DNA of 64,000 nucleotides from Bryoerythrophyllum caledonicum (Eukaryota > Streptophyta > Bryopsida > Pottiales > Pottiaceae). The notes below the pieces were generated by a model. It searched no databases, had not been told where the DNA came from, and saw only the letters and a list, made by a program, of their open reading frames with translations. This document shows positions 1-44,924 of this stretch, piece after piece. The stretch lies in contig OZ020524.1 in assembly GCA_963971425.1 (NCBI GenBank), positions 12,589,845-12,653,844 of the forward strand, read 5' to 3'. Each line of letters begins with the position of its first letter. Position 1 is the first letter of the stretch. The position numbers and the translations under genes are program-made.

Positions 1-73
1 ATGTTTGAGTCTGCTTGGGATTGAGGGAACTTGTCGATTGAAGTGGAATCTCAATCGGTGGCTGTATTCTTTT

Positions 74-3012
74 CTCGGATCCGAGAGGACTGTTACTTCT
101 CTTTCGGTAAGAAGTGGTTGTTGGTGCAAGAGTCTCTACGTTGTGCGAAACTTGTGAAAGTCTGCTGGGGTATGGGGGAACTGGTCGATCGATGGGGAAT
201 CTCAATCGGTGTCTCAATAGTTATCTCGGATTCGAGAAGACAGTATTTCTGTTTAGGGAACTAGTGGCTGCTGGTGCACTATTATTGGAGGCCATCATGT
301 CGATGATGAGACTCACCTAATTTTCAAGAGAAACTCTGAGCGGATGGGGATTGCAACAATCATTGTGAGTGACGAACTCACCCATTCGATAGCCTTATCT
401 TCAAGTATGCCTATTCAATCAACGGCATCTCGCCAACCACGCTTATGAATACCTGCTGAGCTTCCCTTCCATCAAGTTTGCGGCGTGCGAAGACTGTTTT
501 GGACATACTGCGCAGAGGGTTTGACCAAACTCAATTGAAAGAAACAGCCACTTGTAAGTGACCAGTTAGGAGCTATTCTTTGGGAACTTTCGGGAACGGG
601 ATGGTGCGGAGGGGTGAGCTAGTGCCATCTCGGATCCGAGAACACCAGAAGTTACGTGGAGAAGTGTCCACAGTATCGACAGTTTTGAGTTCGGGTTCTT
701 ACGTTCGTCCGAAGGGTTCATACGTAAGTGCACTAATTGTTTCACTCAAATAGCTCAAATGAGAGCAATTTCTGATTTGCTGTGAGATAGTGCAAGATCG
801 GAATGCGAGTCGCTTAATGGGCCAAAGAAGACGTTTTAATTTCAGTGTTAAGTGATAGGCTCAAGAGGACGTGTTCAGTGCAAGTCTAGAGTTCGTTATG
901 AATATGTTGAATTCAGGCCGTTCATGCGAGTCACTTATCGGATCCGATAAAGAATTTTTCAGTGTGTCAGGGTGAGATCAACGTCGTCTCGGAGCCCTGA
1001 TTAAGTTTTTCGTTGAGTACCAGCTGATGTTGAGTTTGGAAGACTCAGCCGGAAGAGAAGATAGTGATTCACATGTGTCAGATTCGTCGGTGTGAGGGGT
1101 GCCGTCTCGGATCCGAGACTCGATAAGGAGTAGTGATCGATGATGGACAAAGATGAGTCATGATATGATGCACTGCACTTTCTAGGTGCACTTCACTGCA
1201 CTGCACTTACACTCAAGAGAAGAATATGTGCTGACTACATTGTACATATCGTGATGGATTCCCAATATCAATTTAGAAGGTTGATTACTGGTCGATGCTG
1301 GAGAATGATTCACCATGTGGTATAATGACCTGGGACTACGATGATATTATTGGTTCGTAGTGGTGAGATAAAAGTCGTCTCGGATCCGAGATCCACCGTC
1401 ACGTAGTGTAGTGGTCCGGTGATGGCCTTGGGGGACGAATTCGGTTTCTGGGTGAATGATTAGCCTGGTATGTTAATTTTGGCATGTTATGAAATATTCG
1501 GTGTAGAGGGATGAAATTTTTGCCTTCTCGGATCCGATAAGGCCTTGACGAGTACATGAAATGAACGAGCACATGTATCCTGTAAGCCCGTCAGCATTTG
1601 ATTGTAGTATCGAGCTGGATATTTGGTCTTACAACAGCTAACTCTTCATACTCGGTCAAACTGAATACCTGGTTTCTTAGATTCTCTGGTCGGTCAGGAT
1701 ACCTGCATACTTGGATACATGGATTCTTGGATACTCGGCCATTCTGCATACCGGCCACAGTGAGTTACGTTCCAGCCTTCAGATGTAGCCTGTCTCGGAA
1801 CCGAGAATCGTTGAAGGTGAACTGATTTACCAAACTGTTCCAGGTTCGAGGAATTTTCATACATAGAAACTCAGATAAAGTGGAGTCATGATGTGGTGGA
1901 CTGCATGTTTGAGTCCAGGCTGCACTTTCACGACCTCTTGATCCAGACTGCAGTGCACTTACACCCACGAGGTGATCCTGTATGGATCCTGACTGCATTG
2001 AACTTATCATCATTAGATATTCATCGTCTTGGATACTAGTTATCGATTCAGAAGGAAAATTTCCGGTCGAGGCAAGAAAATATTGGATCACCCTGGGGGT
2101 GAATGATCAACCAGGTGGTTTATTGAACTTCGACTGTGATGATCTTATTGGTTCGGAGGGGTGACGTTGAAGTCGTCTCGGATCCGAGATATGATTATCG
2201 TGGTCCGGTGTTGGCCGCGGAGGACGAAGTCGGTTCGGGTGTGAATGATTCACCTGGTATGTTTATCGTGGCTTGATTTGAGTTCTTCGATGCGGAGGGG
2301 TGATATCCAAGTCGTCTCGGATCCGATAAGGCATTTGCGAGCTAATGTAACGGACGAGCACATGTACCCTGCAAGTCCGTCAGCGTTAGAATCAAGTATC
2401 GATTGATAATTAGTCGTGCTCTGGACCGCACTTCATACTCGTTCAAGCGATTCCTGGTTTCTGGTTGGGCTAGATTCTTGCATACTAGATTCCTACATCC
2501 TGGTTTACGATATTCAAGCTGGATTCCGGTCGGGCTGGATTCCAGCATACTTGGATACTTGGAAAACAGTCGAGCTGCATACTGGCCATTATGAGCTGAA
2601 TATCTGCCTTCAAATGAAGCTGTCTCGGATCCGAGACCTGCATTGCGGTGATCGATATACCTAGTGGTTCCAAGTTCCAGGAACAATCATGTACAGAACT
2701 ATCATGCACAGATACACTATTCAAGTTGATTACAGTGTGACGTTATGCTCATGTAATTGGACTTTTAGATTGAGTTGTTGGAGTGGCCGGAGCAGGCGAT
2801 ATTAGGTGCACACTGGATAGTATTACTAATAATTTTCGGAGGGCGGTCACATCATGTACTAAAGTTTAGACTGCATGCCAGTAGCATTTCCAACCTAGAG
2901 CTGCAGGCTCTATAAGTTTGGATCTTGCCTTTTAACAGTACCACTAAACTGTAGAATATGATCCTCTCTGACAAGATATTTGATTTTGCGACGCATGCTT
3001 CTCGGATCCGAG
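74..3012. repeat. Array of CTCGGATCCGAG palindromes (copy A)
   Basis: The perfect 12-bp palindrome CTCGGATCCGAG occurs at 74, 629, 1106, 1379, 2177, 2624 and 3001. One- or two-base variants occur at 225, 937, 1527, 1794 and 2316. Spacing is irregular (about 140-550 bp). The block lies directly upstream of the first seen exon of the partner gene, whose 5' side is a splice acceptor, so part of it may be a 5' intron. I saw no copies elsewhere in the window. Each site contains GGATCC/GATC. A role as a binding or modification site for the element's own protein is inference. Confidence 0.85.
1140..2740 (+). repeat. Diverged ~0.8-kb tandem duplication
   Basis: About 1140-1905 and about 1906-2740 align along their length. 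Shared landmarks in the same order are a GCACTTACAC word, a GTCGTCTCGG palindrome site (1379 and 2177), a second site ending CCGATAAGG (1527 and 2316), GACGAGCACATGTA with GTCAGC following, a CTTGGATAC-rich stretch, and a third site (1794 and 2624). Spacings drift from about 745 to 830 bp, so the duplication is old. No coding frame is supported in it. Confidence 0.7.
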
Positions 3013-3241
3013 AACAGTCTACAAAAGTGCCTGATCAACTTTCAGATTTGGTACCTCAATTATAGTTGTCGCAGTGGTACCTGATTTAATGTACAATATG
3101 CTGCCTCGTCGCATGTTTCAAAGATCCAAGATACATCCTGTTCTAGACCCATTTCCCCCAACTTTGGAGTGATTTATGATTTGTGGTGCATAATTTTATC
3201 ATTGTCTTATTCTTTATGATTTGATTTCTTTGTTGTAGAAG

Positions 3242-6200
3242 ATGCTTCCGATCATCAATGACGGTATCTCATCAGGATCTGAGCCCCCTCAAAAGGATTC
3301 AGTTCATGGAGCTCAAGTTCCTCCAACTCTTGAGGTCTCCGATGATTCCTCTTCACAGGAGGCTCCTGGAGCTGCAAATGTAAGTTGAATTCTTTCATGT
3401 TTACGATCAGGGTGCACGTTTAATGACGTTTGAAGAATTGCATGCAATCTCTATAACTGAAATATTTTGGAGGTATAATTTAGTGAGTTCACGGCGGAAT
3501 TGCACTAGTGATATTTGTGAGGGCTATTCATTCCTTGCTATGTCCTTATGTGAGGGAAAAAGATCTCCTCCATGATTCAGAGATGTGATTTGTGATGCTA
3601 CTTCTACTCTTTGGACCATACTGGTTTGAGTGATAATTTATTTGATTTATATTTTTGGAAGGAAATTGAATGTACTACTCGCTGAGAAGTCTTGACATTA
3701 AATCTTTCCTCGTGGTCTGTTCAATGTAAAATTTTCTACTCATGATTAATTGTGATAATCTTAGTACTTATGATTATGTAATGACAATCGCAGGAAAATG
3801 CGTCACCTACGACTCTATCTCAAGGGCACCAGGATGATGGCACTCCTGGAACTGATGAGATTGCCCAACCCGAATTTGGAGGTCAGACGGATGATGGTGA
3901 ACTTGAAGGACCGGTTGATGAAGGTCTTGAGAATGAAGAGAAGGAGTTGTTTGAATATGACTTGCGTCGCCTCCAGAAAGTGGATTCCGTGACTTCAATC
4001 TCCTCATTAAGAATGAAGCCTGAGCATCTATTCCGCCTTCGCATCCCCCTGTGCAGACTGGTTTTTATGCCAATGGTAAGACCTACTCTTTCGTGCGACA
4101 TCGTGAAACTTGAACAAGAATTTGTTCATGGATATCGAGATGGGGCTGCAGTATTTTATGTCTCCACCACTAACGAGGCGGGAGTGTGCATGGAGTTCAC
4201 GGCGGATGAGATTTTAAATTTTGGAACACTATGGAAGAAGGAGAATGACGTATTTGAAAACCATGTAAGTTCAATACCCGAACTCAACTTCCTGAAGAAT
4301 GCAAATTTTTTTGTTTGCGACGGCAATCACCGGCTTCTAGCTTGGATGAACTACATTTCCAGGCTTCATTCAGCTGATCCCTCCTGGCACATCGCCGTTG
4401 ACTGCATCGTGCTGGAGACAAGGGGACGGATTGAATTGGTCATGCAAATTATGCATGATATAAACAAGTGAGTTTTTGGCAGTCACTGAATTTTGAGATC
4501 ATTTTGTCATTTGGTTTCTTGCTTTTAATTCTGCAGTATTATAATCTTTTTAACCTCAGTTTTGGTATCACCTCTAGGTCCACTGAGGACTCCCACGTGA
4601 AAACCAACTTGGTTCACACACTGTACCGGGTTCAAAAGTATGGTCTTATGCCCCTGGAGAAGTTTTGTGACGTACTCAGACCATCAGAGAGGAGACGGTG
4701 TTCAGTGCAGTTGCCTCGCAAAACTTGGTATTTACTACCAGTTGATGTCTTCACTGCATTTATTTTCAGGGTGAGACATATTACATGTTGACTTTCAATT
4801 AACAATTATGTTTTATATTTTCGTTGAATTTTATTTCAAAAGTTTCATTAATGGAGATAGTGCTTGATTCTTGTAGCAAGAAATTGCAGCCGCATCAGAT
4901 GCCGCACTTCGACAATACCATGAGAACACACCAACTGATGAAAAAACAGACGACGGTATTGCGGATGCTATGAGACTAGGAGCTAAAGAGAAGTCCACGA
5001 AATTATATCAGAAGATGCACAAATTACTCACTGTTGCTAATCCTGCTCTTGGTCCTGGATTTCTTGAAGAGGTTAGTTCTCCACATCGCTTCAATCCCTT
5101 TCAGTCATTTTCATGTTATGCATTCGATTATATGATAATTCCCTCTCCTGGACTTATTATCAGGTGGAGAGTCATTGGAGCTCTAACGAAGTTCCAGAGA
5201 TGACCTTGGAGAAACTCCAGATGGTAGCTACATGTTCCACTACTCCGTACCACAAGATTAAGTTTCTTCAGTGGTGGAACTCATCCATGCCATCTCGTGA
5301 TGCTAGGCATTTTCCGCCCAAGCCTGTTTCAGAGCTCCATCTTGGTCCATTTCTGAACAAATGCGTTTGGTATGCCGGGGTAAGTTTACCACTACTCATA
5401 GCAATTAAATTTCATACTTAACAATATTAAATTTCTGGATACATAATTAATTAAAAAATTTCCATTGCAATCTTGTAGATCGAAGATGCTGCTGTTGAGT
5501 TCCTTGATATGGTCGTGAAGAAGGACAAAATCCCAATCAATATGATAGTACCACTCAAGCCCGAGCCTTTAAATGTTTACGTGGAAGGGTGGAGGCGCAA
5601 AATTTGGGATCACGGTTTTTGGGCAGTTATTAAAGGAGCGAATCATTTCAAAAAGATTGACAATTTCAAGACTTTTGAAGGTTCAGGGCAGGCAGTGCAA
5701 AGAGTAATTTTCAGGTTTGATTTTCCTGACATTTCATTGTAAATTTTGAATCATTTTAATGCTTTTCATATCCACACGGACATTAATTAGTTGCTTTGTG
5801 TAAAATGGGCTTATTGTTGAAGTGCATTGTTTTGAGTATTTATGTGAAATTCTTATACTGACTCTTTTTATTTTTGATTCCATTACTCTAGGTACTTCAA
5901 GTACGAGTTGGAACCAAAAGGTGCAATGGCTCATACAGATTTTCCACCTTTCTTGTCGTCTTGGTTGGACCGTAGTTCCAAGGAGTGTATGTTTTCTCCT
6001 ATTCAATTCCGCACCTTTACGACAACCCACCTTAGTGGTGGAGGGTGGTACTTGGATTGCAATGTTACTTTCACCCATCCATTTGAGGTAGAGCTGAGGA
6101 AATCCTTTGATGGACTAGGTGCTATCACTATGGATTTTGACGAGTATGTCGGCCTTACTGAGAAACAAAAGAAGAGAGCCATTGCCAAAAGAGACGCCAC

Positions 6201-8078
6201 TGATAAGAAGAAGGAGGAACGTCTCCAAGAGATTGTGACTTCAAAGGCAAAGAAAGAAGAGGAACGCTTGGCGAAGAAAGAATTGGAAAGCTTGGCAAAG
6301 GTAGCAGAGAAGGAAAGAGTGAAGGACAAAGGTAAGAAGGCTGATATGGGAGTCCCAATTCCAGCTTCTTCGACAGTGGACAGTGGCTCTCAGATGCTTG
6401 GTGGTTCTTACAGTGGTGTGATGAGGCCGGCTGCACTTCCTGAGTTCTCCGAAGATGTGATTACTCATGGGACACAAGTGATTGTCCTTGATGAAGAGAA
6501 TATGGAATACTTTGGAGGATTAATTCTTAATATCTCCATCTCAGAGTTGTTGGAAAACATGGACGCTATGACACCGATAACATATACTAAGGTTTCCCAA
6601 TTTCTGAAGAAGGTAATTTTTTTTAATATCACTTGCATAACGTAAACTATTGAATGTCCATGGACATTTTGCATAATTTACTAACTGATTTACTCTTGTC
6701 ATTTTTCTTTGCAGTTTTCTGGAGATAAGTCTCGAAAGATCAATGGTGTGGCAGATATCAAGCCAGCCGTGGACCTAATTCTTTTTGACTGTCAGGAGAA
6801 TTTTCCTGTACCAGGGGTGTCTGTACCAGCGACTATGGTACCAACTTGGAATGAAGACAAAGAGTATGAAGATCTTCAATCAGCTTTTGCATTTGCTGAA
6901 CTCCATCTTCAAGACGATGGTTGTATGATAGTGTTCCATTCGTTCTCTGCTATTTCAAAAGGAAATATTATTGGACTTTGTGAGACATATCAGATGCTGA
7001 AGAAGAAGGAATGGTTGGGCATGAATCGTCTTCACTTGACTTCGGCATTGGATGTTACTACCACCGTGAGTTTTTTATAGTGTTCTTTATTTTTAATTGA
7101 TACGTTACTGAAAGTGTCCTTTATCTTCTTGATGTTGATGTTGTTTGTAAATTGACAGACGCAGAAGTTTGGAATCAGCCTCCTTGTGAAAGACCTCGGC
7201 CCGAAAGGTAAATCCAGCTTTTCTTTCAAACGGTCAACCACAATGAAGAATGCAAGTGTCGACATCGGGCGAGACGACATGTTGATTAATTACACCATCG
7301 ATCGAGACTTGGCGATGAATGGTGATATTCCGTGGCGAGGGCCTCGTCAGAAGGATCCTCGATTTTTCCAGCTCCTTTTGGAAGGCACGACTGTTGCTGG
7401 AGACCTGGTACTAGATTGCACTGCAGCTACAGGTGCGTAATCAACTATTTGGTTGTGTGTTTCAATTTCCATCCTCAAATTTATCTATATATTTATTTAT
7501 CTAAGGTTTTGTTCTGCAAATCTAGGTGCGTCGATTACCGCCTGTCGTGGTCTTCATCGACAAATCGTGGCTTTAGAGAAGGACACCGATTTGTTTGATG
7601 CCCTTCTGAAGCCCATGGAGGTGGCCCCTCCTGCCATCAAATCGTCTGAATCCAAAGCCGTGGAGGTGGCATCTGAAGATCCTGATGCCATGGTTGTCGT
7701 GCCTCGCAAATTCAGTCGGAAGGCTAGATTCAGTAAGTGAGTGTTTACCTTTTATTTTCTTTCGTATGATTATCTTTTTCTATCTTTTGTTCTAAATATT
7801 CTTATTGCACAATATTAATGTGCAGCCGTTCAGGATTGACGTTAGCCACAACATTGGTGAAGAATCAGGGTCTTCTTCTAAGCCCGGTGAAGTCATACGA
7901 TCTGCCAATGTATGTGGAGAAGATGGCAACGGCATTTGTGGAGTTTGGTTGCTCTAAACCAAAATCCAAGAAGTATGATGATAATGTTTTGAAGTATATA
8001 GATGGTTCAGCAGCTGAGGATAGAGAGCCATCAGAGTCATTTACGAGTGATGATTTTGTGTTAGGTTTCTTCAACTGA
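3242..8078 (+). CDS. ParB-like/DNA-methyltransferase-like fusion protein (copy A partner gene)
   Basis: Eleven exons join in one open frame of 1153 codons: 3242-3379, 3794-4467, 4578-4770, 4877-5071, 5164-5379, 5479-5714, 5892-6612, 6715-7065, 7159-7432, 7526-7736, 7826-8078. All junctions are GT-AG. The N-terminal third looks like the ParB/sulfiredoxin fold: IPLCRL and VRP near residue 155-170, then CDGNHRLLAW with D222-R226. A helical middle region follows, then a K/E-rich coiled coil (about 634-700). The last third has beta-class methyltransferase order: a motif IV-like LILFDCQENF (D816), then a late motif I-like LVLDCTAATGAS (D994) with ALEKD after it. The usual DPPY is DCQE, so catalysis is doubtful. 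The start is the first ATG after an acceptor at 3238; a further upstream exon is possible. Homologous to the minus-strand gene at 8458-14315. Nuclear action is inferred. Confidence 0.75.
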
Positions 8079-8433
8079 GTCTTCATCGTCTTAAACTCCT
8101 GGATTTTTTAGAAATCTTGGATATTTTGTATTGATTTTATTATGATTGGATTTGTGTGCTTTATGGCTATATAACTGGGTGATGTCTTGTTGATAATCAT
8201 GTTATTCATCACATTCTTTACAGCAAACCATATACATTTGATAAATGTAATATATCCATTGAAATAATTTTTGTTGATGCTCCAATAATAATTATATAAT
8301 CACAAGAGAATTTAACAATTTCGAACTCCTCTAATCTCACGGTAATAGGTCTATCACTATTTTTTCTTTATAAAATGGTACATAAATCTTCTCATGTCCT
8401 ACCAATTTTTTTTTGTCAAGGCTTAAAAAATTC
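8079..8433. other. 3' flank of copy A partner gene
   Basis: AT-rich sequence after the stop codon. It should hold the 3' UTR and polyadenylation signals of the partner gene. No gene or repeat was recognised before the terminal repeat. Confidence 0.5.
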
Positions 8434-8504
8434 AGCTCACCGCTCACCGCTCACTGCTCACCGCTCACCGCTCACCGCTCTAGGCTCACATAATAGCATT
8501 CCCC
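8434..8504 (+). repeat. Right terminal inverted repeat of copy A
   Basis: Six near-identical 9-10-bp words (GCTCACCGC or GCTCACTGC) run from 8434, then TAGGCTCACATAATAGCATT and a terminal CCCC at 8501-8504. Read inward it begins GGGGAATGCTATTATGTGAG, which matches the ends of copy B (GGGGATTGCTATTTTGCG) and copy C (GGGGAAAGCTATTTTGCG at its right end). The ten bases outside, ACGCTTCCTG (8505-8514), are the expected right-hand target duplication; the partner is outside the window. Confidence 0.75.
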
Positions 8505-11500
8505 ACGCTTCCTGGGACATGTTGGAGCTAGGAAATGGCGGTCCAGGTGCCACCTTCCCCTTCAACTTGTGCATTAGTATGGAGATTGGGCTTGACCCGT
8601 CCTCTACTGCAGTTACCGAATTGACAGGGGCCAGTGCGGAAGTGTTCACACAAGTTGACTCTGGTATCACCTGAAGGACGTCAATGTCAACATCCATTTC
8701 TACAGCAGCACTACAGTCTGCTCCAAGAGACCTCTTCTCACTAGCTACAGCGATGGCGGCTTTAGCAAGCTTCTTCATATTCAATTTTGCCTCCGCTGCA
8801 ACAGCCTTCACCGTTAGTGCAGCTTCTGTCTGTGAGTTGGACTTTGGAGTAGCCGCAGCAACGTCCTCAGCCTTCCTCTTTGAGCGTCCTATCTTCTTCA
8901 CTGTAGCCTCGGTGGACTGTGGAGCAATAACATCCTCTGTGCCCGCCAAATTGGGCTGAATAGTATTCCTCAAGTCAATCTCAAAGGACGGTGGCTTGTC
9001 CAACGGGCAGTCAATGTACCACCCACATTGCATCCAGTGGTCCTTCGACCACTTACTTGCGATCTCGTCAGTGATCATACAATTAGCTGTTCGCCTATCG
9101 AGATAGCTAGGAAAGAAGGACAGAGTCTTGGAAACAACTTTCCGCGGATATAGAATGAACTTAAAATACCTGTAAAGAATCCTAGAAACCGCCTGAGACA
9201 TTCCAACCTGGTCCTCCGGGCTTTGGTTTTTATGAACTCCCTTTCTCTGAAACTCATGCTGGAATGCTAAGTCCCACAACTGAATTCGATTCTGCTCCAC
9301 ATAGTCTCCCAAGGATTGAACGACGTCTCCATCAAGCGGTTCGTAATCAATTGAGACACCAAGCTCAAACAACGTGGCATCGAATAGGTCCTGAACCTCG
9401 CTAGCGATCTGAGGACATGGATTTTATTAGAACCAAGATGAAATTGGTTAAAAAAGAAATATAAATTCACTAAATTCTGACCTGAGACCACCAAGTGGCC
9501 TTGTGGAGCCATTCGGGGAACGCGTGGTCAGCAAATTTGCTCCTTGGAAACCGCACAGCATCACGAAGTGAGGCTGGCATGTTCCAGCGCTCAAGCCACT
9601 TCACCTTCATAGCTGGTTCCATTGCAGACGTTGCAAGGTACCACAACTTCTCCTGGGACATCTCTGGATCGTCCTCTCGCTTTTCGTAATGCCTTCTTAC
9701 TTGCTCAAGGAACTGTGGGGTATGCTTTGGATCAGCAATAGGAAGTTGTTTCTTCAATTCAGAAGAGGTCTCTCTCTTCACCTTATCCACAGCTTTTCCA
9801 ATTTCCTCGTGCAGCTTACCGGTTGTCCACTCACTTGATTTCTCGGGGTATTTTTCTTTGAATTTCCTAGTGGCATGGGCTACAGCATCTCCAAGCTCTT
9901 GCTGAAGACAGCGAAGCATAGGTCAATCACGATAATATATTCAAATACCGTGTTTTCAAAAATGATACACATGAAAGAATGTCGAAAACGCAGTCTAGAG
10001 TGCTGCATTATTCCCAGTTAAAGGGCCCTACTTCAACAATCTGTCCCTGGCGCTTTGATGACACCGAGAAAATAAAGAGCGAGCAGTTTGGGTGCCGATA
10101 TCGGCAGCCCAATGTCTTGTACCAGAAACTTACACTAATAAAAATATATGTGCTGCCCATTAAGTGCAGCACATCTCATACTGAAACATAAAAACATTAG
10201 GGCGACCCATAACTGCTGCCCATCTCATAAGTGTTGCCCATGCCATTTAATTGTAAGTGCTACCCATGCCATAAAATCGTAAGTGCTGCCCATCTCATTT
10301 TAAAAAGAGATCATTGGGGACAAAGTATCAGATGCTATATAACAAGCTTCACAATGCAGTTAGCATCACAGTGCAAGAACGTGAGAAATATTCTTGTAAG
10401 TGGCTCAATTTCAAGGTTTAACACAGTCCACGAATTAATCAACCAGAGGAGATTCGATTCGTACCTGGTAAAGAACTGAAATGAGGCCGTCCATCGTAAG
10501 AGTATACCAACCATGGTTCTTGGACAATTGTTTCTTCTCAGCGTCATTGAGTTCCTCTTTCGAAACAAGATTCTCGAAGTACTTTAGTGGCTGACCAGCA
10601 ATTCCCTGGATGCGGTATAGCTTATGCACTAGGTTCATTTTCACATGGCAATTTTGATTCCTCCTGCAAAATCAGAGAATCGTTAGTACTTGAAATTATT
10701 TGAATGAGAAAGTTTCCAAATTCTTCCTCTCTTCCAAATCAACTCCATATCAAGTCTTGGTTCAAGTAAATTTTTTAATTCTGACAATAGTTTTTACAGG
10801 CCTCAAGATTTTTGATTATTTGGAAGAGGACTTGTTCACTTTCTATTCTATGCATCTAATCTATATTTTCAGAAGATATCCAAGTTCCAAGGTGCAAACA
10901 CTATGCACCAAAACTAGTTAGAGATTCACATATACCTTGTACAATGCAAGACTGCGGTTAAAGTATTAGACAATTATTATTTGGGGTATTAAATTATTGA
11001 TATTTGAATTCTTGCCCACTTTTGAGATCATCAATGTAGGTTAGATTCTTACCAATTCACCTGATGAAGCGCAGTAAGTAGTGGTCCAACTTGCCCTTCA
11101 ACCTCCAGGATAATTGACTCGATAGCATAATGCCACTCGGGATCGTTGGCATGATCCCTGTTGATAATTGGCAACCAAGCAGCTAGTCGGTGGTTGCCAT
11201 CCCAAACGAAGAACATCTTCTTAGAGAAGCGCTTCCAGGCCTCTTCTTTTTGTAGCTCTATCTCAAATGCTTCATTTGCTTTTTCCCACAGCGGACTCCA
11301 ATTTGATGAGTGCTCACTGGTAACATCAAGTGTCCTTCCTTCGTTATCCTGCAAGGCCACGTAAAATACGCCATGGCCATCCATGTAACCTGTACTTACG
11401 AAGTGAGCACCTAATGCCATTACATCGTTCTTGAGATATGGCCTCACAGCGGCAAGAGGAAGCATGCGACACAAGGGAATATTTAACTTGGACTTGCTCC

Positions 11501-14315
11501 GTGGCTTTAAACGAAGCTTATCCAACACAATATTTGTGTTAACAGACTCCTTTACCACCAAGGCGTCCATCTCCTTGCCCAGTTCTTCTGCAGACATGGC
11601 TGTTGAATATTGACTTTCGTCTTCCAGGGGCATAGAATCATGATCTTGCGTGTCCTCGTCTCCCTCATTGTCAAAGTCCCCTGCAGATAATTTTATCAAT
11701 TAGGATATCATTAATATAAAAATAATGAACAGAAGATCGAAACAAAAATTACCGGGTGCTCCAATATCAGGCTGAGGAGAATCTTCGTGATCCACCATTG
11801 AATCAACAAGTCCAGCAGTCGCTAAATTGACATTCACCCCTGTGGACAGCAACAAAGAAGGCATATAACCTCAAATTAATAACTACGGTCAAAGAGCAAG
11901 AGCTACAGAGTGAACAAATTAACCATCGATTCAAAAAGGAGGTAGCTCGAGAACAAGAACCCTGATTCAATGTTAGCATAAGTTCAACCAGGCTTAATCC
12001 CGTGAATCAATATCTAAGGCCGATATCAGCGATGCTAGCGCGGAGCAAGGCAGGTGAGGTCTCCGCATAACACCTGAGGTCTTCGCACAACAGAGTCAAT
12101 ACTAAGGTGCCTTCCTCTCCACTCCATGCAGTCTGCTAATGTCGGCGAGGCCGTGCTAAAGGTCCCAACGAGGTGTCGAGGTGACTAGGTGCCGAGGTGT
12201 CCTGGTCTAGAGGATCCAGCGAGGTCCAGAGGAACCGAGGACTGCCGATGTCATTCACATAAACCCGAGAAGAACACGAGTCGTTCACTACTAACCAACG
12301 TGCTGTGAACTGGCTGACTGAGAACTGCGTCCATGAACTCAATATTATCCTTACCCCTAAACCTAAATGAACTGCGTCTACCAACTCAAAAATCTTGAAT
12401 CTTGATGGGAAACAACATCAGTCTCGTAATCTACCACTGCCGATATCGGCACACCTAAACCGACAGAGAATCCGCATAAATAGTGTGGTAGGGAATCTGG
12501 ATAGGAACGAATGAAGTATACGTTTCCACTTAAGAACAGTACATTGTGGTTCCACCTACGAAAAATTCATCACTGCCGCAACAGAATCGTGGTTCACCAC
12601 TGCCGGATTATGATCAATAGCGGCAGCCAGTCACAACGCTCCAGCATATACCATTTTTCCAGTCCACTCATATTCCAAGGGGAATATTTCACGCCTCATA
12701 TTCGAAGGTAAATATACCAAGGTGGAAATGCTCGCTTCTCAAATAGTGGACTAACGGTACATTCCGACCCTCTCAACATGAGAAAAATTCCACAGGAATC
12801 AGTGCTCCATATCCGTAACCAGTGCAGCAATGACGTTAATATTATGCAAGTGCAAGTCAATTACATGCAAATTCGCCTGCCGATTCAAGTCACCAGTGCT
12901 ACAGTCCGTCGATGAAGATTTCTGATGAACCACAATCAGGCGATGAACCTCAGTTTACCGACGAGCCAGACTCCTTACAGTCTGACGATATACCAGAAGC
13001 CTTGGTCCAAGGTCCCGAGGATCACCTGCAGTCTGTCAGTTACCACTGCCGAGGGTCACCAGTACCACGCCGAGGATCACAAGTACCACTGCCGAGGATC
13101 ACCAGTACCATTGTCTGCCGGTTACCACTGCATGTTACTATCGTTTGCCGGTTACGCCAGCGAGGTCTTGAGGCAGCGAGGATCACCTCAACCTGTCCAG
13201 AGGTGACCTGTCCACTGCCGATGTCGGCGATGCTTCGTCTCAAAAACCAACGAGCCCAGTTTATGAGGACCCAGCATGGTCCAGGAACGGCCATGTTACC
13301 ACTGCCGACGTCGGCTATGATTCGCCCCACCGGTGCATGTGCACTATTTGCAGATAGACCGGATTCGATTCTGCCGATAAACCAGGTTCGATGCACTAAC
13401 TGTCGATGAACCAGGTCCGATGCGAGGTCCACAGGTCGGCGATGATACCACTGCCGATGTCGGCGATGCTTGGCACTACCGAGGCAAGTGCACAGTCTGG
13501 TAAGAGACCTGAATCCATGCTTACGAGGTCCGAGGTCCCGAGGTCCAAGCGAGGTCCACAGGTCGGCGATGCTACCACTGCCGATGTCGGCGATGCTTGG
13601 CACTACCGATGCAATGGACTGCCTATCTATGATCCTGCATGCGAGTTTCGAGCGAGGCCTAGAGGTCAATGGTTGAAACGAGCATGGCTTCAAGCCTGAT
13701 GCGAGGTCCAGTTGAAGTGAGAAGGTCGGCGCGTTGAGGTCCAAAGGTCGGCGCTTGAAGTAGCGAGGTCCGGTGGTCGGCGATGCTACATCCCTAAACC
13801 CAGCCAGTCCAGTTGACGTCATCCTCTCACCCAAAATAATCGTCGTTCTCCTAGAACCGACGTCGGCAGCGCTTTCAAAGCGCATTTCCAGGCTCTTGTT
13901 CAACTCCCAAACGTTGAACATGTTCAACTCCCGAACATTCAAATGCTGTAATTTGAACATGGAAAACTCACCTTAGGGTGGCAATCAACCGCGCCGAAAA
14001 AGAAAAAGCTGCCTTCTCAGATCTCTTTAGATCTAAAAATGACTTAGATCTAAAAACGAGTTTGGTTCGTCGAACGGTTGTCTAGGTCCGCCCTGACCTG
14101 AGTGAGAGGACAACGAAAGTACACATAGACGCAGTTCCACGACTTCCAATCCCTTGAAACAAGTGCCGACATCGGCCTCCCTAAAACGGAGTGCATCTCG
14201 ATCAAACCCTAAGAAGTCTGCGACCCGATCATACCCTAAGGTTTTCGTATCCTAGTTCAAATATCGTGAAACTGAACAAGAGAAACTAAACTTCAAAATG
14301 GATCGAACCTTCCAT
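8458..14315 (-). CDS. ParB-like partner protein of copy B, 3'-truncated
   Basis: Minus-strand exons 14309-14315 (ATGGAAG), 11753-11839, 11053-11680, 10465-10663, 9482-9901 and 8458-9408 join in one frame of 764 codons with matching phases. The first donor (GTTCGA) is weak. The ParB/sulfiredoxin-like core is clear: IPLCRM, VRP, GYMDGHGVFYV and VWDGNHRLAAW with D192. The middle region matches copy A exon by exon, but two of A's introns are absent here (within the 9482-9901 exon and the 8458-9408 exon). An Ala/Lys-rich coiled coil follows. No methyltransferase motif is present. The final 15 codons are read from copy A's terminal repeat (8458-8504) and end in CEPRAVSGER, so the original C-terminus is lost. 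Divergent from the transposase at 16161; the 2.5-kb first intron is full of palindromes. Confidence 0.7.
10130..10310. repeat. Short tandem repeats inside an intron of the copy B partner gene
   Basis: The intron between the 10465-10663 and 9482-9901 exons holds about five degenerate copies of a word like AAGTGCTGCCCATCTCAT, spaced about 30 bp apart. A perfect GCCGATATCGGC palindrome lies just beside them at 10094-10105. No coding potential was found. Confidence 0.6.
12019..14176. repeat. Array of GCCGAYRTCGGC palindromes in the first intron (copy B)
   Basis: Exact matches to GCCGAYRTCGGC start at 12439, 13217, 13304, 13453, 13580 and 14165. Near matches are at 12019, 12135, 12244 and 13856. 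Further exact copies lie in other introns of the same element: 10094 (partner gene) and 18513 (transposase), with a near match at 18346. Around 13.44-13.60 kb the sites sit in a ~125-bp tandem unit. Between 13.04 and 13.14 kb there is a shorter repeat of CCGAGGATCACCAGTACCAC type. All sites are in non-coding DNA, as in copy A, but the motif differs. Confidence 0.85.
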
Positions 14316-14766
14316 GTCGCGTGCAAAACAATGTTGATCTTCGGCTTCACTCCCCCTCCTTGTTGGTTGAATTTCGATAACGCCTGCACAAAGCAAAGAA
14401 AGCTGTTTAGGTCTTACAAGCCCCACAAGCCCCACAACCTCTAAAGGAGTGTACGAATTTCGACCAGCAAGACCATATCAGAAGACTAAATCCCTAATAC
14501 AGTTCTGCAGAAAACTACCTCAAATAGACATAGTACAGTCTTAACGCTGCTACTCTCATCACTCTAAAGACTTCCCCATTTGAACGCCTCAAACTCGAAC
14601 GCATAGCCTTCTGAAATGAATCATATCGATACCACAAAATGAGAGTACAGACCCAAGATACTATGTCTAAATGATTAAATATGAATAACAAATGACGAAA
14701 GGAACTGTGAAGAAACCTCGTTCCGCTGATGGGTCTTTACATTGAATAGTTGCAGCATGCTCTTAC

Positions 14767-37939: not shown

Positions 37940-37949
37940 TGTCTAGATA

Positions 37950-38034
37950 GGACAAGGCTATTTTGCGAGCATAGACTTGCGAGCGGAGAGCGGCGAGCCT
38001 TGGTTTGCGAGCCTAAAGCACAAAAAGTAGAGAG
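37950..38034 (+). repeat. Left terminal inverted repeat of copy C
   Basis: This runs from GGACAAGGCTATTTTGCGAG through AGCGGAGAGCGGCGAGCC to CACAAAAAGTAGAG. It is the inverse partner of 44843-44914, with about three mismatches in the outer nine bases. Confidence 0.85.
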
Positions 38035-38860
38035 TTTTGAGGAAAAAGTAAAAGTTTCTTAGGTTATTTTAGGGAAAAGAACACTAAATTTAATACGTCA
38101 TTGGCCCTATTATCGTGGAGTAGGTGGCTGAAACATTGGGCAAGCCAAAATAGTTTTTGACAATTAAAAGACTTCAAGAGGAAAAAATTGCAAGTCATCA
38201 TGAAGAAGGCCTATGACCGTGGTGATAAGTTTATCAAATGATGAAAATATATGCTTTCTGAGGTTAGGAAGATAAAGGAGAAGTAACAATGAACGGGTGG
38301 TCAGTAAGAGAGCAGATAGAAAGTTGGTAGCACGAACACACCTGAGATGGATAAAAGAAAATGATGGTGAAAAGCATTGTTGTGGAGGGACTATGAGTGG
38401 TATGGATAAGAGAGTTCATATGAGAAATTGGTGATAAACAAGGACAGTAAGAGAGTAACGGTTTAGAGATGGAAAATGTCAATTTAGGATAGAGACACAA
38501 TTTAGGGGAATTTTGATGGAGATCAAGTTAAGACATGATGTTTGTGAGAGGAACAAGTAGGGTCGAAAGAGTGCATAGAGGTGTAAGGAGACCAAAAAAA
38601 TTCTACAAGTGTAGAATACATGTGCAACAAACATCCATCCTATCATTCCATGTGGTGTACAAGAAATTGCTCATGAATGAAATGTTGAAGTGGCCCTTTT
38701 TGTCTTACCACAATTTTTATAGAATTGAAAGAAGATAGTACCCTAAAGAATTTTGAAGTATATTTAAGCACTGTAGTGTTTTAGAAGCAAAATCTAACGG
38801 AACCATTTAATCTCATTCCAGGTGAAACTAGAAGTGTGCATGAAGACATCTAGGCCCTAG

Positions 38861-40046
38861 TCAAATCCATATACTATGGTAAAGATGTAGTAGAGGTGCT
38901 TGAAGTAGGTCTACGCATTGCACTTGCCAAGTGACTTGTTTGACATCTCTGTGAAATATGGACAAGAATTGACAAATTGTCAACACATAGCGTGAAACCT
39001 TCGAAATGCTATTGGATTGTAAAGTAATAATGCAGCCAAGAGCTGCAAGCGATACGATAAGGATATCGCAGATCTTCGCAGCTATTGATAGTGCAAAGGC
39101 ACAGTTGTTATGATGTTTAGTACTTGGAGCTTTAGGATTCATGCCAATGTTATTTCCAAATTTTATGGTAGAGTGGTCCAAAGGATTGGAAGGAAGAGGA
39201 TAGTCCGTGAGGTTCATTGAAATGCCTTTTATCCAAATAGCTTTTGAGGATACATCTCTACACACTTAGCAAGTCTGAAGTTGCCGCACTCGAGAGAAAG
39301 AATTTTGGACCTGCTAAGGTTAGTGTCCATCTTCACCAGCAGAAGTCCGGGACATGGGGTTTTGAAACCACTCACGGTGGTTGAGGATTGTGGACACATC
39401 AATAATTATCATCTTTGCAGAAGAAAAATTGCATCTTCTCGAGTCTGCTCTTCTTATAATTTTCCATGAGGTCAATATAAGTTGGAGTAGCCATAGGTTG
39501 CCTATTCTACACAATCCTTGCTACACAATACTTCTTGTCCTGTATGGCAATGCAAGCTTTTCCTGAGGTCTTAGAAAGTCTTGCAATGTGTCATTGTTCC
39601 TTGTCACAAAGTTGGAGTCTTAGACAAATCAACCTCGGTTGGAATGTGTCTACTTTCGGAGGGCATTTCAGAGTCATCAACTATGAGATCAACAAATTTC
39701 ATATCATTATGCTATCTTCTGAGCCGTCGGTGAGAGAAACAGATCTTGTCTAGGCAATGGAAGTCAAATTGAGAACACAAAGGAAGTTTTCCTTTTTGAT
39801 TCAACGAGACAAATTCTTCTTCACTTTCCAGGTGAGGATCTTGTATATAGGATTTGTCCGCACTAGGCATTGTGGCAAGAGCCGCGCAAAAAACCTTCGC
39901 ATTCCCAATGTGTTGAGCGGAACGATAGACAGTACAAAGTCGTAGATCTTTTTTCTTAGGATCAGTTCTCGGCTTCCACTCTTGATAAATTGGTAATAGA
40001 CAATAAGGTGCATGAATACACGCCATGTCATCCACAATGGCGACAT
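38861..40046 (-). pseudogene. Decayed transposase of copy C
   Basis: The 39712-40046 part matches copy B's transposase just after the DDE core: DDM..., RSAQHIGNAKVFCAALATMP against RSAQRSGNSKVLHAALANMP, then DPHLESEEEFVSL. The 38861-39265 part matches the region before the SWIM finger: DYPLPSNPLDH, KAPSTKHHNNCAFALS, and SISKVSRYVLTICQF against SISKVSRYLLTIGQF. The CDC of the SWIM finger is lost and the frames are broken between the parts. The first exon with the catalytic core was not found, so it is deleted or displaced by the repeat array to its right. Confidence 0.85.
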
Positions 40047-40309
40047 ACTAATCGTCTTTTTTTTGTCGGACTATTGTAGTCATTTGTTGTGAATCGTCTA
40101 CGTTAAATCGTCTTATAGGCAACTGACGTCGACATCACAACAAGCTTCCATGGAAATATTATACTACCCAATAAATGCTAAGGAATATATTTTTGAAAGC
40201 GTTGATACTGGCAAACGATGGAGCGGACACCGCAAGCAAGAACGTTGCCCATTCCGGGTACGTTCAATTGGCAAAAGAAAGGACATTTGTAGTGACACTA
40301 TGAAGAGGC

Positions 40310-42235
40310 AGCCGATATCAGCGGCCTATAATCAGGATAGGGGAAAAACCAAGGAAATGAAAACTCCCAAAAAATCATGGAAAAAATAGAAAAATGTAAT
40401 AAAAAATGCGTTGCCGATGTTGGCAGTGCATCATTGTAGAACAATAAAGGAAAATCATTAATAGAGTAGATTGCATTATCCATGTTGACGAGCTCACAAT
40501 TTCGACCTTATTTGACAATAGACTTCTTTAATTGTAGAAGGAATCTCAAAAAGAAGTCTCTAATATCGGTACTTATCTTGAAGGCCCTTCATATATTTAA
40601 AAAGAAAACTTTCAAAGGGGTGCTCACATCAACATTCCTCTAGAAAGCCCTTCCAATGTTTAGAAATGAAACCTTCAAAGCGGATGGCGACATGAGCAAT
40701 CATAAAGAGGGCCCTACATTGTTTAAAAAGAATCTACATAAAAGATGCCGACATCGACACTACTCAAGAGCACCCGTCCAATATTTAAAGCGGAACCTCT
40801 ACAAGGGGTGCTGATATTAAAACCCCATTACATGATGCTTAATGTTTATTAATGAAACCTTAGAAAGGGAGTTTGACATTGGTACCTCTTTAGATGGCCC
40901 TTCAATGTTTACAAACGGAACCTTCAAAAGAGGTGTCAACATTGGTACCCCTTAAGAGAGCTTCTTCTATGTTTAAAATATATATTTCTAAAAATGGTAC
41001 CGACAACAAAACTATATTGTAGGGCCCTTCAAACCTCCACAAGAGATGCCAACATTGACACCTTTTCAAAAGCCCCCCCCCTCCAAATGTTCGAAGCAAA
41101 CCTCCAAAAGAGCTACCATCAAATGCACCTCTTTAGAAGACCCTCCAATTTTTATCAAGCAAACTTCCAAAAAGGCAAACAACATCGGTGCCCGTCAAGA
41201 GATCCTCTTAAATATATATTAAGAAAACCTCCTAAAGAGCAGCCGGCATCGGCGCCTATGAAGAGGACCTTTTAAATGTATATTAAGGGAACCTCTAATA
41301 GGGCAGCCAACATCGGCGACTTCCTAGAGGACCCCTTAAATATATATCATGGAAACCTCCAAAAAGGTAGCGGTCATCGGCACCCTTCTACAAGATCCCT
41401 TCAATGTATATAAAGGGAACCTCCAAAAGGGCAGCCGACATTGGCTACCCCTAAAGCGTGCAACCACGCTTAAGAAAATTTGAAGATATTTCCAAAATAA
41501 TATTACACTTTATCATTGGACATTGTACGAATGAGTTATTTGCGGATGAAGTTATGAGATTCAAAACTTCATCCATTGATAACTCATCCATACAATGTCC
41601 AATGATAAAATATAATACCATTTTGAAAATATCTTCAAATTTTCTTAAGCGTGGTTGCACACTTTAAGGGTAGCCGATGTCGGCTGTCCTTTTGGAGGTT
41701 CCCTTAGTATACATTCAAAGGGTCCTCTAGAGGGGTGCCGATGTTGGCTGCCTTTTCGGAGGTTTCCATAACATACTTTTAAAGGGTCCTCTGAAAGGGC
41801 GCTGATGTCGGCTACCCTATTTTTGGTTCCCTTAATATACAGTTACGGGGCCCTTTAGAAGAGTGCTGATGTCAATAGCCCTTTTGAAGGTTCCTTTCAT
41901 ATATATTGAAGGGATTCTCATGAGGGGTGCCGATGTCGGCTACCATGTTGGAGGTTCACTTGATATACTCTTCTTGGGGAGGGAAGATGTCCGCGATCCT
42001 TTTGGAGATTTTTTAACATACATTTAAGGGGTTCTCTTGAGAGGCGCCAATGTCGGCTGCTCTTTTGGAGGTTCCCCTAACGTACACAAAAGGGGACTTC
42101 TTAAGGGGCGCCAATGTCGATTCTACTTTTGGAGGTTTCTTTAATAAAATTGAAGAGGCCCTCTAGAAGGGTGCCAATGTTGGCAGCTTCTTCACATGTT
42201 CCTTTTTAAAACCTTAGAATTGGCCTCTATATAAG
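40310..42235. repeat. Inverted array of ~63-bp units carrying the GCCGAYRTCGGC palindrome (copy C)
   Basis: About 25 degenerate units of roughly 63 bp run in one orientation up to about 41.45 kb and in the opposite orientation from about 41.67 kb. Each contains an imperfect or perfect GCCGAYRTCGGC site plus words such as AAGGGAACCTCCAAAAGGG. Exact palindromes are at 41673 and 41929. Close variants include 40412, 41242, 41433 and 41739. It occupies the same place as the palindrome region of copy B, between the divergent genes. Confidence 0.85.
41450..41670. repeat. Central ~220-bp near-perfect palindrome
   Basis: The arms start GTGCAACCACGCTTAAGAAA (left, from about 41459) and are mirrored by the reverse complement ending near 41667. 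The axis lies near 41561. Both strands therefore encode the same peptide in open frames (41458-41667 plus, 41451-41660 minus), which is a by-product of symmetry rather than a gene. The symmetry continues outward into the flanking array units. Confidence 0.9.
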
Positions 42236-42399
42236 ACATGTTCCAAGTCTCTGTCTGGCGTCTGCTGATATTGATTGCCTCTACATTGTGACGTGCTATT
42301 ATCCTGGTTAGAACATTAGTGCACTTTTACCTATCCTTCATTGCCTCATTTGATGATACAATCGTATTTTTTGATTCAAAAACAGTTTGATAGTGTTGT

Positions 42400-43760
42400 T
42401 TCATTGCAACTTGAATGTTTCAAGAGCAATTTTCTGATAAGTCAATTGAGTGGACAACGAAGAAAATCCACGAGGTGGTCAACAAAGTTGTGATGAAAGT
42501 GAAAAAAGAGATGACATCTATGTTGAAGAAGTTGTTGCCCATTGAGGACCCTAAGTATTCTCCACAGTCCCTTGAACAAATTAGGCTACATAACTAGAGT
42601 CTGAAATATTATCCAAAGATGTCTCAAAAAAAGTTGATATATCCCTCAACCTCTGTAATGGACGTTGCCAGAAAGGTCAAGTGGCTGGAGCGCTAGAACA
42701 AGTTGGCTTCTTTCGTGTTTCACTGAAATTCCATATGGAAAAATTTGCAAATCATTCTTTTCTTGGATAGTTGATGAAGGTGAATTCGTAAGCACATGTT
42801 CGTTTCAATACCTTCAATAATTTTGATTCTAAACTCGTTCATATGATCTCACTAGAGATGCTTCTGCAGCTTTCAACTGAAGTGATGGCCTAATTTGATT
42901 CTACATTATATGAACTTGGAGAGCCGATTGACTTTCATCATTCACGCTTTTGGAGAGTGTCTCAATCTATCAATTCATGATTACGTGGAGCGGATGCGCA
43001 TTTAGCTATAGGACTTGGCGTTTCTGGACAAGTTGGATGTGAAGGGTGTGCACAAGAACCGCGTTGCAGAGTTGGAGGTTGAACTTTTAGAGGCCATTAC
43101 CTAGGTCTTATACAGATAGTTTTTTACATCTTGTATTAAAAGAAGGTGGCGTAAAAGATGTGTGCATATTTTGAAAGTTATCTAGATCGTAATGGCGACA
43201 AGTGCATTCTAACTGAAAACATCCCAAAAAAGTGGGCCCACCTGCACTAGCACAAATGCAGGTGATACTTTGACTTCCCAGTGACCAAGCCCCTATCCTT
43301 GACATCGAACTCAGAAATGGCATCTAGCCCGATTAAGTTGGCACTGAGATTATGGTTCCTCCTTTGGATGATGCGGCGCCTATGAAACATACAAGTAGAA
43401 CGCAAAAGAAGGCGGCTGAAGCTGAGAAGGCAAAAAAAGAGAAAGCAACGGTGGAGGCAAAAACAGCCGCGGAGGTTGAAGCTATTATAAAATTAAAGGT
43501 TGTGGTTGCCAAGGCCAAAGCGAGCATGAAGCCCTTTGCTGAGGTTGTTATTGCTGAGATGACAACAAAGCAAGCCGCTCACAATGAGGCCCTCGCGGTA
43601 GTGGATTTAGGTGTCGACACATATATCTTTGGTCTAGCTCACATTATCCTAACTGCTGTAGTTGCTGCTCGGAGCCATTACTCTAACCCACCACCGTTGG
43701 CAGAGGATGGATAAAGTTCTCTCTCCTTTATTATACAGAAATTGAAGTAGAAAATAGATC
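42400..43760 (+). pseudogene. Decayed ParB-like partner gene of copy C, lacking its 5' part
   Basis: The plus strand reads, with many stops, the same order as copy B: SIEWTTKKIHEVVNKVV against SSEWTTGKLHEEIGKAV, LPIEDPKYSPQSLEQIR, VARKVKWLER, then DSTLYELGEPIDF, SYLDRNGDKCILTENIPKKW, and the Ala/Lys coiled coil (43352-43714). It ends with EDG-stop-SSLSFIIQKLK, matching EDGSSPISILMHKLKG of copy B. The DGNHR domain exons are absent, replaced by the array on the left. No methyltransferase domain was recognised before the terminal repeat, though an unrecognised open stretch lies at 43777-44124. Confidence 0.85.
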
Positions 43761-44842
43761 TGCTTCCCGCTTCATTTTGTCACATCCTATTTCAATCTTT
43801 GTTGAGCCCACGAGTATCGGGAAGATAATAGAAGTGTTGTCTCGTGTTCACGGTTGTGTACCAAATTTTGAACAACTTTGTCCTTCAAATTCAATTTATT
43901 TTCCCACTCTTTGCACTTATGTTAATTTACTCATTCTTTCGTCTTTGTTCCTGAAATCCATGTCGTTGTTGCCAATGAACGAAATACCTCTCTGGAGAGT
44001 GTGGAGACATCCTCATTGGTCCCACAAAGGTGTTGCATTGCGCATCAGCACCTCAGTAAAGAGAGTCCCAACATTGACATTGATTGAAGGAAGTGATGAC
44101 TTTGGGTTGCCATTGCATTTCTAACTTGATGTCGTCGTTTTGATCACATTGCATCACTGCAATGTTTTAGAGTTGTTGATTTCAAGCTCTTCTTCTCATC
44201 CTATTCAAACTCTACAACATATAGAATATCCACAATGGAAAATATAAACATTACTCTCGCACTATTAAACACGCTCTTCCCTTCCAAGCAACCCTTAAAA
44301 TCACTCTACATTAGTTCATATGGATATCTGCTTTAGCTGTCCACTATGTGGTCCTTCATTATGTCCATTGAAGATTTATTACTTCTTGACTTCTTCTTAG
44401 GAAAATTATTTAAATACCAATACTAGTTCCACATACATGGTTGGAGTCCCTTAGTCGACAGAAATCACAATTAAAATTTCCACTTAATTCAAATTCATAG
44501 TCTCCCTCTTTAAATTCCACTTACTCGTTGAATATTAATAAGTCTTGATGAATATCTAGTTGAAATTGTATTTGGAATCCAACTTTGCTCTCCTCTTTTT
44601 GTGCAAAAAATTGTTTTCATCAAAACACAATTCATCCACGGTCATAGGATAGTAGTATCCATTTCATCAGTCAGTCCCTACTCTAATTTCACTTCTAGTG
44701 ACAATTAAGTACATCTCAATAGCACTTCAGTCTAAGATCTAGTCCAATTTTTACGGCTATAGGACCCTATCCTAAATGTTCACGTTTACTTTTCCTTTAA
44801 TTTTAACTTTAAAGTTCTGTAAACTTTTATTTTTATCCTTAA

Positions 44843-44914
44843 ACTCTCTACTTTTTGCGCTTTGGGCTCGCTGCTCTCCGCTAGCATCTCTACGCTCGCA
44901 AAATAGCTTTCCCC
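44843..44914 (+). repeat. Right terminal inverted repeat of copy C
   Basis: CTCTCTACTTTTTGCGCTTT, GGGCTCGCTGCTCTCCGCTA and GCTCGCAAAATAGCTTTCCC, ending CCCC at 44914. Inverse partner of 37950-38034. Confidence 0.85.
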
Positions 44915-44924
44915 TGTCTAGATA

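Follow-up and report, generated by a model that had tools for sequence, protein, structure and literature searches.

A Mutator-like transposon family pairs its transposase with a divergent ParB–methylase-like partner gene and carries clade-differing palindrome arrays

A two-gene transposon was identified in Bryoerythrophyllum caledonicum from three copies, elements A, B and C, in the window (the whole stretch of DNA analysed, 64,000 nucleotides). The element is a Mutator-like (MULE/IS256-type) transposon of an abundant family, a classification that both the length of its target duplications and its transposase fold fit. The second gene encodes a partner protein that is, judging from sequence profiles and predicted structure, a ParB-CTPase-like domain joined to an N6/N4-type methylase-like domain. 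Palindrome arrays, which differ between the A and B clades, were shown in mostly noncoding DNA of the elements, and this clade difference suggests that the partner may recognize its own element.

MULE target duplications are about 9–11 bp in length. Terminal inverted repeats, related among all three elements, were detected in three of the three elements, each flanked by an exact 10-bp duplication of its target (ACGCTTCCTG for A, ATGTGGAGCA for B and TGTCTAGATA for C). Element A (−6023 to 8504, 14,528 bp, forward strand), of which 1..8504 lies inside the window, ends with a right terminal inverted repeat at 8430..8504 (reverse strand, inner limit approximate), followed by its target duplication at 8505. 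Element A is nested in element B (−9258 to 20881, forward strand; approximately 15.6 kb without A), the insertion site being the B partner gene, and the right part of B at 8505..20881 ends with a terminal inverted repeat at 20807..20881 (reverse strand, inner limit approximate) and a target duplication at 20882. The true starts of both elements are thus upstream of the first base of the window. Element C (37950..44914, 6,965 bp, reverse strand) is decayed and flanked by target duplications at 37940 and 44915. Because target duplications were present in all three elements and many same-score copies were found across many contigs (11 at 459.4 bits and 13 at 141.5 bits among the matches listed), the transposase and its partner were read as one mobile unit. 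The first-pass annotation had described a MULE-like family with divergent transposase and partner genes and related termini in B and C, and the same partner and terminus in A; this description agrees with the 10-bp target duplications and the structural matches given below, with C retaining decayed remnants of both genes and A being fuller than described, as its own transposase lies upstream of the window.

The pairing of the two genes was analysed by comparing transposase exon matches with divergent partner exons across the genome (437 Mb), which is that of a green photosynthetic organism, with 58 matches to light-harvesting proteins. Among the matches listed, a divergent partner exon was present within 35 kb for 57 of 60 matches to transposase exon 1 and for 126 of 145 matches to exon 3, as expected from the earlier proposal that the pairing is a property of the element; the unpaired matches listed (3 for exon 1 and 19 for exon 3) may not be truly unpaired. 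A partner exon in the wrong orientation only was found for none of the matches listed at 35 kb, and for one exon-3 match at 20 kb. When the 135 listed exon-3 positions were placed at random on large contigs, a divergent partner within 20 kb occurred with a mean of 0.78 and a maximum of 5 in 200 placements, compared with 115 observed. These results confirm that the pairing exceeds chance, and that the unit consists of two divergent genes.

Transposase A (−5577 to −1916, upstream of the window, reverse strand) is divergent from partner A, and is 58–59% identical to transposase B (16161..20102, forward strand). For the latter, splice sites, open reading frames, relatives and fold indicated exon 1 at 16161–18272, an intron and a further stretch at 18654–20102, with an in-frame stop at 19308–19310. 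The transposase remnant of element C, detected by sequence match, covers exons 2–3 only (38767..40124, reverse strand), and no match to exon 1 was found within this element. The structure model of transposase B (pLDDT 70.9, pTM 0.49) gave chains of ISCth4 (IS256) as best Foldseek matches (E 7e-4 to 8.5e-3, probability 0.87–1.00) and contained a GCM-like DNA-binding fold, and a SWIM-type C-x-C...C-x-H pattern was seen by eye in exon 3. The search of Pfam with the three transposase B exons (E up to 1) matched nothing, MULE and SWIM included, and a PDB sequence search gave nothing useful. Kinship with IS256/MULE-type DDE transposases of RNase H fold is supported by structural matches of moderate quality.

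Partner gene A (3242..7740, forward strand) was modelled with 10 exons and remains open over approximately 1,070 aa, with the ParB-like domain in exon 2 (3794–4467) and the methylase-like domain in exons 8–10 (6715–7740). An 11th exon was tried in the splice model and rejected, as its reading frame was not open; a stop closes exon 10. Partner gene B, broken by element A, retains its 5′ and middle exons at 8505..11699 (reverse strand), including the ParB-like exon at 11052..11699 (reverse strand), while the methylase-like exons of this gene are located before the first base of the window. In element C, sequence matching detected middle exons only (42406..43756, forward strand), and no match to the ParB-like exon was found. 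The ParB/sulfiredoxin (Srx) fold recognized in the first-pass annotation was recovered by structure comparison of the partner B exon, which is homologous to exon 2 of A, and the P-motif GxxR (G168-N169-H170-R171) falls within columns at least 90% conserved among 45 sequences. The first-pass annotation had described neither the methylase-like domain at the C-terminus nor the arrays of palindromes. The Pfam scan of partner A, which missed both the ParB-like and methylase-like domains, identified no HTH and, at E up to 10, gave a single weak unrelated match, with neither DUF1985 nor DUF287.

The methylase-like domain was matched by PF01555 in two partner copies (E 4.5e-5 and 1.1e-4, both under the curated cut-off of 26.7 bits), but not in partner A alone, and a three-copy profile of the domain matched beta-class methylases in the PDB. 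Searching exons one at a time against Pfam and PHROGs gave nothing useful, and a protein search with methylase exon 8 gave two candidates, neither significant. Catalytically ordinary N6/N4 DNA methylases carry the motif DPP(Y/F/W). At this position B and C841 read DLKD and A reads DCQE, the canonical motif being absent in all three copies read; other clades may keep DPPY, as its state is known from these three copies only. Between B and C841, pS was saturated (0.81 and 0.86) and pN was 0.21 for the ParB exon and 0.18 for methylase exon 8; on these substitution values, both partner domains were shown to be constrained between the two clades, while comparisons with A indicated weak constraint (pN 0.47–0.52). 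Because the canonical motif is absent in the three copies, a putative SAM and DNA binder, or an enzyme of altered mode, is more likely than an ordinary 6mA/4mC methylase. An active 6mA/4mC methylase, guided by sequence and placing a chemical mark on its own element, as proposed for the Ectocarpus Sola1 protein, would account for the PF01555 and beta-class matches and has a precedent in the self-marking suggestion for that protein in the available text of PMC12477816, but we consider it very unlikely, since DPPY is lacking in the three copies and the comparison of B with C841 shows constraint on the exon.

The available text of PMC12477816, which cites Iyer 2011 and Petroll 2025 as originals, describes in Ectocarpus Sola1-1_Ec32 a ParB-methyltransferase accessory protein of 1,104 aa encoded opposite to the transposase. 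The present partner resembles this protein in its ParB-like and N6/N4 methyltransferase domains, in its size (approximately 1,070 aa) and in its location inside a DNA transposon on the strand opposite to the transposase. The host element is Sola1 there, whereas it has an IS256/MULE-like transposase here; candidate target palindromes are present here, and DPPY, as read in the present family, is altered in three of three copies. Because such proteins were reported earlier in algal transposons, the class of ParB-methylase accessory proteins is not new, and the earlier view of a ParB-fold transposon partner as unprecedented does not stand; the novelty lies in the MULE-type element, the altered DPPY motif and the candidate target palindromes. 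Phage fusions of ParB-CTPase and N6_N4 methylase (PMC12704722) share the domain fusion, the GxxR phosphate motif and the mobile-element setting, but are viral and prophage; that survey takes in eukaryotes, and neither 'plant' nor 'transposon' occurs in its main text. Fungal DNA transposons carrying TET/JBP (PMC12730594, available text) likewise have a DNA-modification gene aboard, with a different enzyme in a different host lineage. No report placing a ParB-methylase in a MULE, or in any land plant, was found in the literature searched, most subscription papers being beyond reach, and 'ParB' does not occur in the main text of PMC6446971 or PMC13317346.

Element A carries 12 copies of the palindrome TCTCGGATCCGAGA (up to two mismatches) at 73..3013 in the divergent intergenic region, compared with a mean of 0.05 expected for this element under a Markov model (20 simulations). 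For GCCGAYRTCGGC (up to one mismatch), the motif scan placed 8 of the 11 sites of element B at 12019..14176, and the other three, at 10094, 18346 and 18513, are intronic, with both genes represented. Element C carries 11 GCCGAYRTCGGC palindromes (up to one mismatch) at 40311..42057, two of which match GCCGANNTCGGC exactly; they sit in a 405-bp inverted duplication with a spacing of approximately 64 bp. Within the 74 kb scanned at these thresholds, 34 of 34 motif matches were inside the three elements; at two mismatches, the B motif also gave matches outside the elements (three), in A (one) and in a B exon (one).

Genome-wide, TCTCGGATCCGAGA was found at 128 sites compared with 0 for the reversed control. 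Of 50 sites listed, 40 had an A-clade partner no more than 20 kb away and were on its 5′ side, and 10 had no listed partner within this distance. On the sites listed, TCTCGGATCCGAGA was present within 20 kb for 10 of the 11 A-clade partners and for none of the 59 other partners examined, and the motif was absent from loci L001–L062. GCCGAYRTCGGC was found at 397 sites compared with 2 for the control. Among the 50 exact sites listed, 21 had an exon of a listed element no more than 12 kb away (21 of 35 on C1 and 0 of 15 on C2), and the other 29 stand apart from the listed elements. Sites listed within 6 kb on the 5′ side were found for all four B-clade partners on C1, compared with 2 of 17 other C1 partners, and 29 of the 30 B-clade partner loci (L032–L061) had at least three matches, the exception being L050 with none.

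Since DNA is shared by descent within a clade, the association of motif with clade is by itself no proof of binding. The palindromes might instead be promoter sites bound by host transcription factors, or might have arisen through tandem duplication and been retained by recent common descent, the role of the partner being unrelated. The placement of arrays between divergent promoters, the constant distance from the partner of several A-clade sites, the inverted duplication in C with its regular spacing and the many listed GCCGAYRTCGGC sites apart from listed elements agree with this explanation, which we nevertheless regard as quite unlikely: GCCGAYRTCGGC also occurs in introns of both genes, the motif differs between the A and B clades, and, as the main case against descent alone, B and C have it in common though their intergenic DNA cannot be aligned.

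Repeated subterminal sites are bound by many transposases. Together with the GCM-like fold in the transposase model, this favours the palindromes as enhancer or subterminal binding sites of the transposase, the partner acting elsewhere, for example as a DNA nickase or methylase aiding transposition; nicking of DNA has been reported for a Bacillus cereus ParB-methylase (PMC5512222, available text). We consider this unlikely, as the array of element A, on the 5′ side of the partner, is separated from the two ends by 5.5 kb and 6.1 kb and is not near the termini, although this is not decisive because the transposase is also clade-specific.

ParB-type proteins recognize palindromic, parS-like sites. 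The partner has a predicted N-domain fold like that of the partition and repressor proteins ParB, Noc and KorB, but neither an HTH nor a dimerisation domain turned up when partner A was scanned against Pfam, a scan that also missed its ParB-like and methylase-like domains. The best explanation as a whole, tentative and somewhat short of an even chance, is that the partner is a self-targeting, VANC-like regulator of its MULE-type element. The partner would bind palindromes of its own clade, in the manner of ParB at parS or VANC at its arrayed motifs, and may act as an NTP-dependent clamp spreading out from several sites; once bound, it would label the element, and would counter silencing of its two divergent promoters or regulate them. 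A more specific version, which we regard as rather doubtful, is a self-recognition system in a eukaryote, in which each clade would have its own ParB-like nucleotide-switched clamp co-evolving with palindromic loading sites, which would form a parS-like array within introns and in the DNA separating the divergent promoters, while the methylase-derived domain, no longer working through its usual motif, would mark or unsilence its own clade only.

As described in the available text of PMC5735166, VANC of VANDAL MULEs is likewise a MULE accessory protein with family-specific arrays of short motifs in noncoding element DNA, different families carrying different motifs; unlike the present sites, the VANC21 and VANC6 motifs (YAGTATTAY; AGTTGTCC and AGTTGTAC) are not palindromes. 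The DUF1985/DUF287 domains of VANC were unmatched in partner A by a Pfam scan that also missed its methylase domain. VANC is an anti-silencing protein, whose expression goes with loss of methylation on elements of its family, and such an effect is a candidate role for the partner. If the regulator reading is true, the partner would be a second, unrelated kind of MULE accessory gene, which may do the job of VANC in VANDALs, and a bacterial DNA-partition fold would have been re-used in plant transposons. For the algal ParB-methylase proteins, a self-marking role was proposed with no target named in the available text of PMC12477816; the large green-plant family adds candidate, clade-differing target sites, so that this proposal becomes directly testable with two proteins and two palindromes.

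At loci L025 and L030, one GCCGAYRTCGGC site each falls within the coding region, where transposase exon 1 ends; none was found in the 1.5 kb 5′ of the L030 transposase. In four intergenic stretches of other clades, exact palindromes did not exceed the Markov maximum at L063 and L065, but were above it at L064 (three copies) and at L066, where they are locally clustered.

The boundaries of the three elements were defined by terminal repeats together with an exact 10-bp target duplication, which flanks each of A, B and C (3/3), and the terminal-repeat core GCTATTTTGCG or a near variant was found in all three. Element A extends from −6023, in the locus directly upstream of the window (L031), to 8504; element B extends from −9258 to 20881, interrupted by the inserted A; and element C occupies 37950 to 44914. 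Within this nest (upstream L031 and window 1–20881), A has inserted into the coding sequence of the B partner gene and so disrupts it. The transposase of A (−5577 to −1916, minus strand), located outside the stretch available to the first-pass annotation, is divergent from partner A and shares 58–59% identity with the transposase of B. Its exon 1 contains one stop, and the transposase of B carries one in-frame stop at 19308–19310, where several relatives are open over approximately 490 aa. Partner A is open across 10 exons (approximately 1,070 aa in our splice model, the last exon ending at a stop), and copy C retains only parts of transposase exons 2–3 and parts of the middle exons of the partner. 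At 29527 and 31956, the short sequences CATAATAGC and CAAAATAGC match the terminal-repeat core, possibly reflecting a further decayed element or chance.

A Pfam scan of the transposase B exons gave no match. Its AF2 model (pLDDT 70.9, pTM 0.49) was matched by Foldseek to the IS256-family ISCth4 transposase (E 7e-4), to the GCM DNA-binding domain (7.2e-3) and, with weaker E-values, to PB1/DIX-like folds. The predicted ISCth4 similarity, together with the target duplications, supports MULE/IS256 kinship of the transposase. The weakly matched PB1/DIX-like fold is placed at the N-terminus, at residues about 35–115, as read by eye from the model strands.

The transposon family is real, abundant and well paired. 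The window was placed in contig C12 of the assembly (437 Mb, 894 contigs), in which 58 light-harvesting-protein matches indicate a green plant. We listed at least 60 exon-1 and at least 145 exon-3 transposase matches, and at least 150 partner matches each to the ParB exon of B, the ParB exon of A and the methylase exon, each listing drawing on 1,576 to 3,437 first-look candidates. Pairing was counted against the listed matches to the B ParB exon and the methylase exon. Among the matches listed, a divergent partner exon was present within 35 kb of 57/60 exon-1 and 126/145 exon-3 matches, none had only a non-divergent partner exon within 35 kb (one exon-3 match did at 20 kb), and 3 exon-1 and 19 exon-3 matches had no listed partner exon. 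On large contigs, 115 of the 135 listed exon-3 matches were divergently paired within 20 kb, whereas 200 runs of random placement gave 0.78 on average and never more than 5. Conversely, for 31/33 B-clade partners the listed matches included a divergent transposase exon no more than 35 kb away. The matches listed also included same-score copies across many contigs (11 transposase exon-3 matches at 459.4 bits and 13 methylase-exon matches at 141.5 bits), and subtraction of positions in five same-score pairs gave a gene-to-gene spacing of 8.7–8.9 kb. This constant spacing indicates that the transposase and its partner appear to move together. The subfamily of 11–13 same-score copies, such as C10:15026501-15035616 and C1:9566774-9575890 (genome coordinates, G000), is likely a recent burst.

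The divergent intergenic region of A contained 12 matches to the palindrome TCTCGGATCCGAGA (≤2 mismatches), and B and C each contained 11 matches to GCCGAYRTCGGC (≤1 mismatch), against a Markov expectation averaging 0 to 0.05 per element. None of these 34 matches fell outside the three elements in the 74 kb of window and L031, about half of which lies within elements, and none overlapped an exon of our gene models; two mechanical ORFs (12840–13409 and 13040–13972) overlap the array of B. At 2 mismatches, B-type matches also occurred three times outside the elements, once in A and once in a B exon. In the degenerate array of C, exact palindromes did not exceed the Markov maximum. Copy C also carries, at 41153–41965, a 405-bp inverted duplication (79% complementary) with palindromes spaced approximately 64 bp.

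Genome-wide, TCTCGGATCCGAGA occurred at 128 sites, compared with 0 for the reversed control. For 40 of the first 50 of these, an A-clade partner was no more than 20 kb away, and every one of the 40 lay 5′ of it; in the region covered a site accompanied 10/11 A-clade partners and 0/59 others. GCCGATATCGGC occurred at 397 sites, compared with 2 for the control; for 21 of the first 50, one of the listed element exons was no more than 12 kb away (21/35 on contig C1 and 0/15 on C2, where the part containing these sites has no B-clade partner among the matches listed). Sites within 6 kb 5′ of a partner on C1 were found for 4/4 B-clade and 2/17 other partners (first 50 of 397 sites). Based on these counts, the A motif shows a tight association with the A clade; the B motif, although strongly enriched and found at the B clade, is also scattered, perhaps in decayed elements. 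Common descent can account for part of the motif–clade association; the best evidence against descent alone is that B and C have the B motif in common, despite intergenic regions without blastn similarity at E ≤0.01.

At least three B-motif matches were found at 29/30 B-clade partner loci (L032–L061), with no match at L050, and the A motif was absent from L001–L062. Two more distant loci, L025 and L030, each had two sites within the transposase intron, with a consensus near CACTGCCGAYRTCGGCAGTG, and one at the end of transposase exon 1, in its coding sequence; the 1.5-kb 5′ flank of L030 had none. For other clades, four intergenic stretches (L063–L066) were analysed. Exact palindromes surpassed the Markov maximum in L064 (ATCGG-2-CCGAT, 3 copies) and, locally clustered, in L066, but not in L063 or L065. 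Dispersed 10-mers were above it in L063 (4 vs 3), L064 (6 vs 3) and L066 (5 vs 2), but not in L065 (3 vs 3) or in three control stretches of the window. One A-motif match was present in L064 and one B-motif match in L066; L065, from the same-score subfamily, showed only 2 B-motif matches and no clear motif array.

According to passages of PMC12477816, the accessory protein of the Ectocarpus transposon Sola1 joins ParB to a methyltransferase, with relatives in green and red algae, and self-marking has been proposed as the role of such proteins. Passages of PMC5735166 describe Arabidopsis VANC proteins as binding arrays of motifs, specific to each family, in the noncoding DNA of the elements that encode them, and as causing loss of DNA methylation. 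The moss family resembles Sola1 in protein architecture but resides in a MULE-type element, and its candidate motif arrays resemble the VANC/VANDAL target layout. It combines ParB–methylase architecture, a VANC-type target layout, a MULE-type element and a non-canonical methylase motif: the class is partly known, and the variant is new, with a testable candidate target site. The likeliest mechanism would be sequence-specific self-recognition of the element, leading to anti-silencing or promoter control, for which we infer binding, nucleotide switching and an effect on methylation.

Elsewhere in the window, two minus-strand ORFs adjoin the right end of B (20936–22993) and are probably a retroelement gag region, since a CCHC zinc knuckle was weakly matched by one of them. 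A dispersed repeat (74–82% alike) occurs at 15275–15576, between the two genes of B and possibly a small inserted element there, and at 25799–25954 and 51659–51825. Further repeats are a 56-bp tandem array at 33935–34270 and, at 53077–54425, a distinct group in both direct and inverted orientation, several of them spaced approximately 178 bp.
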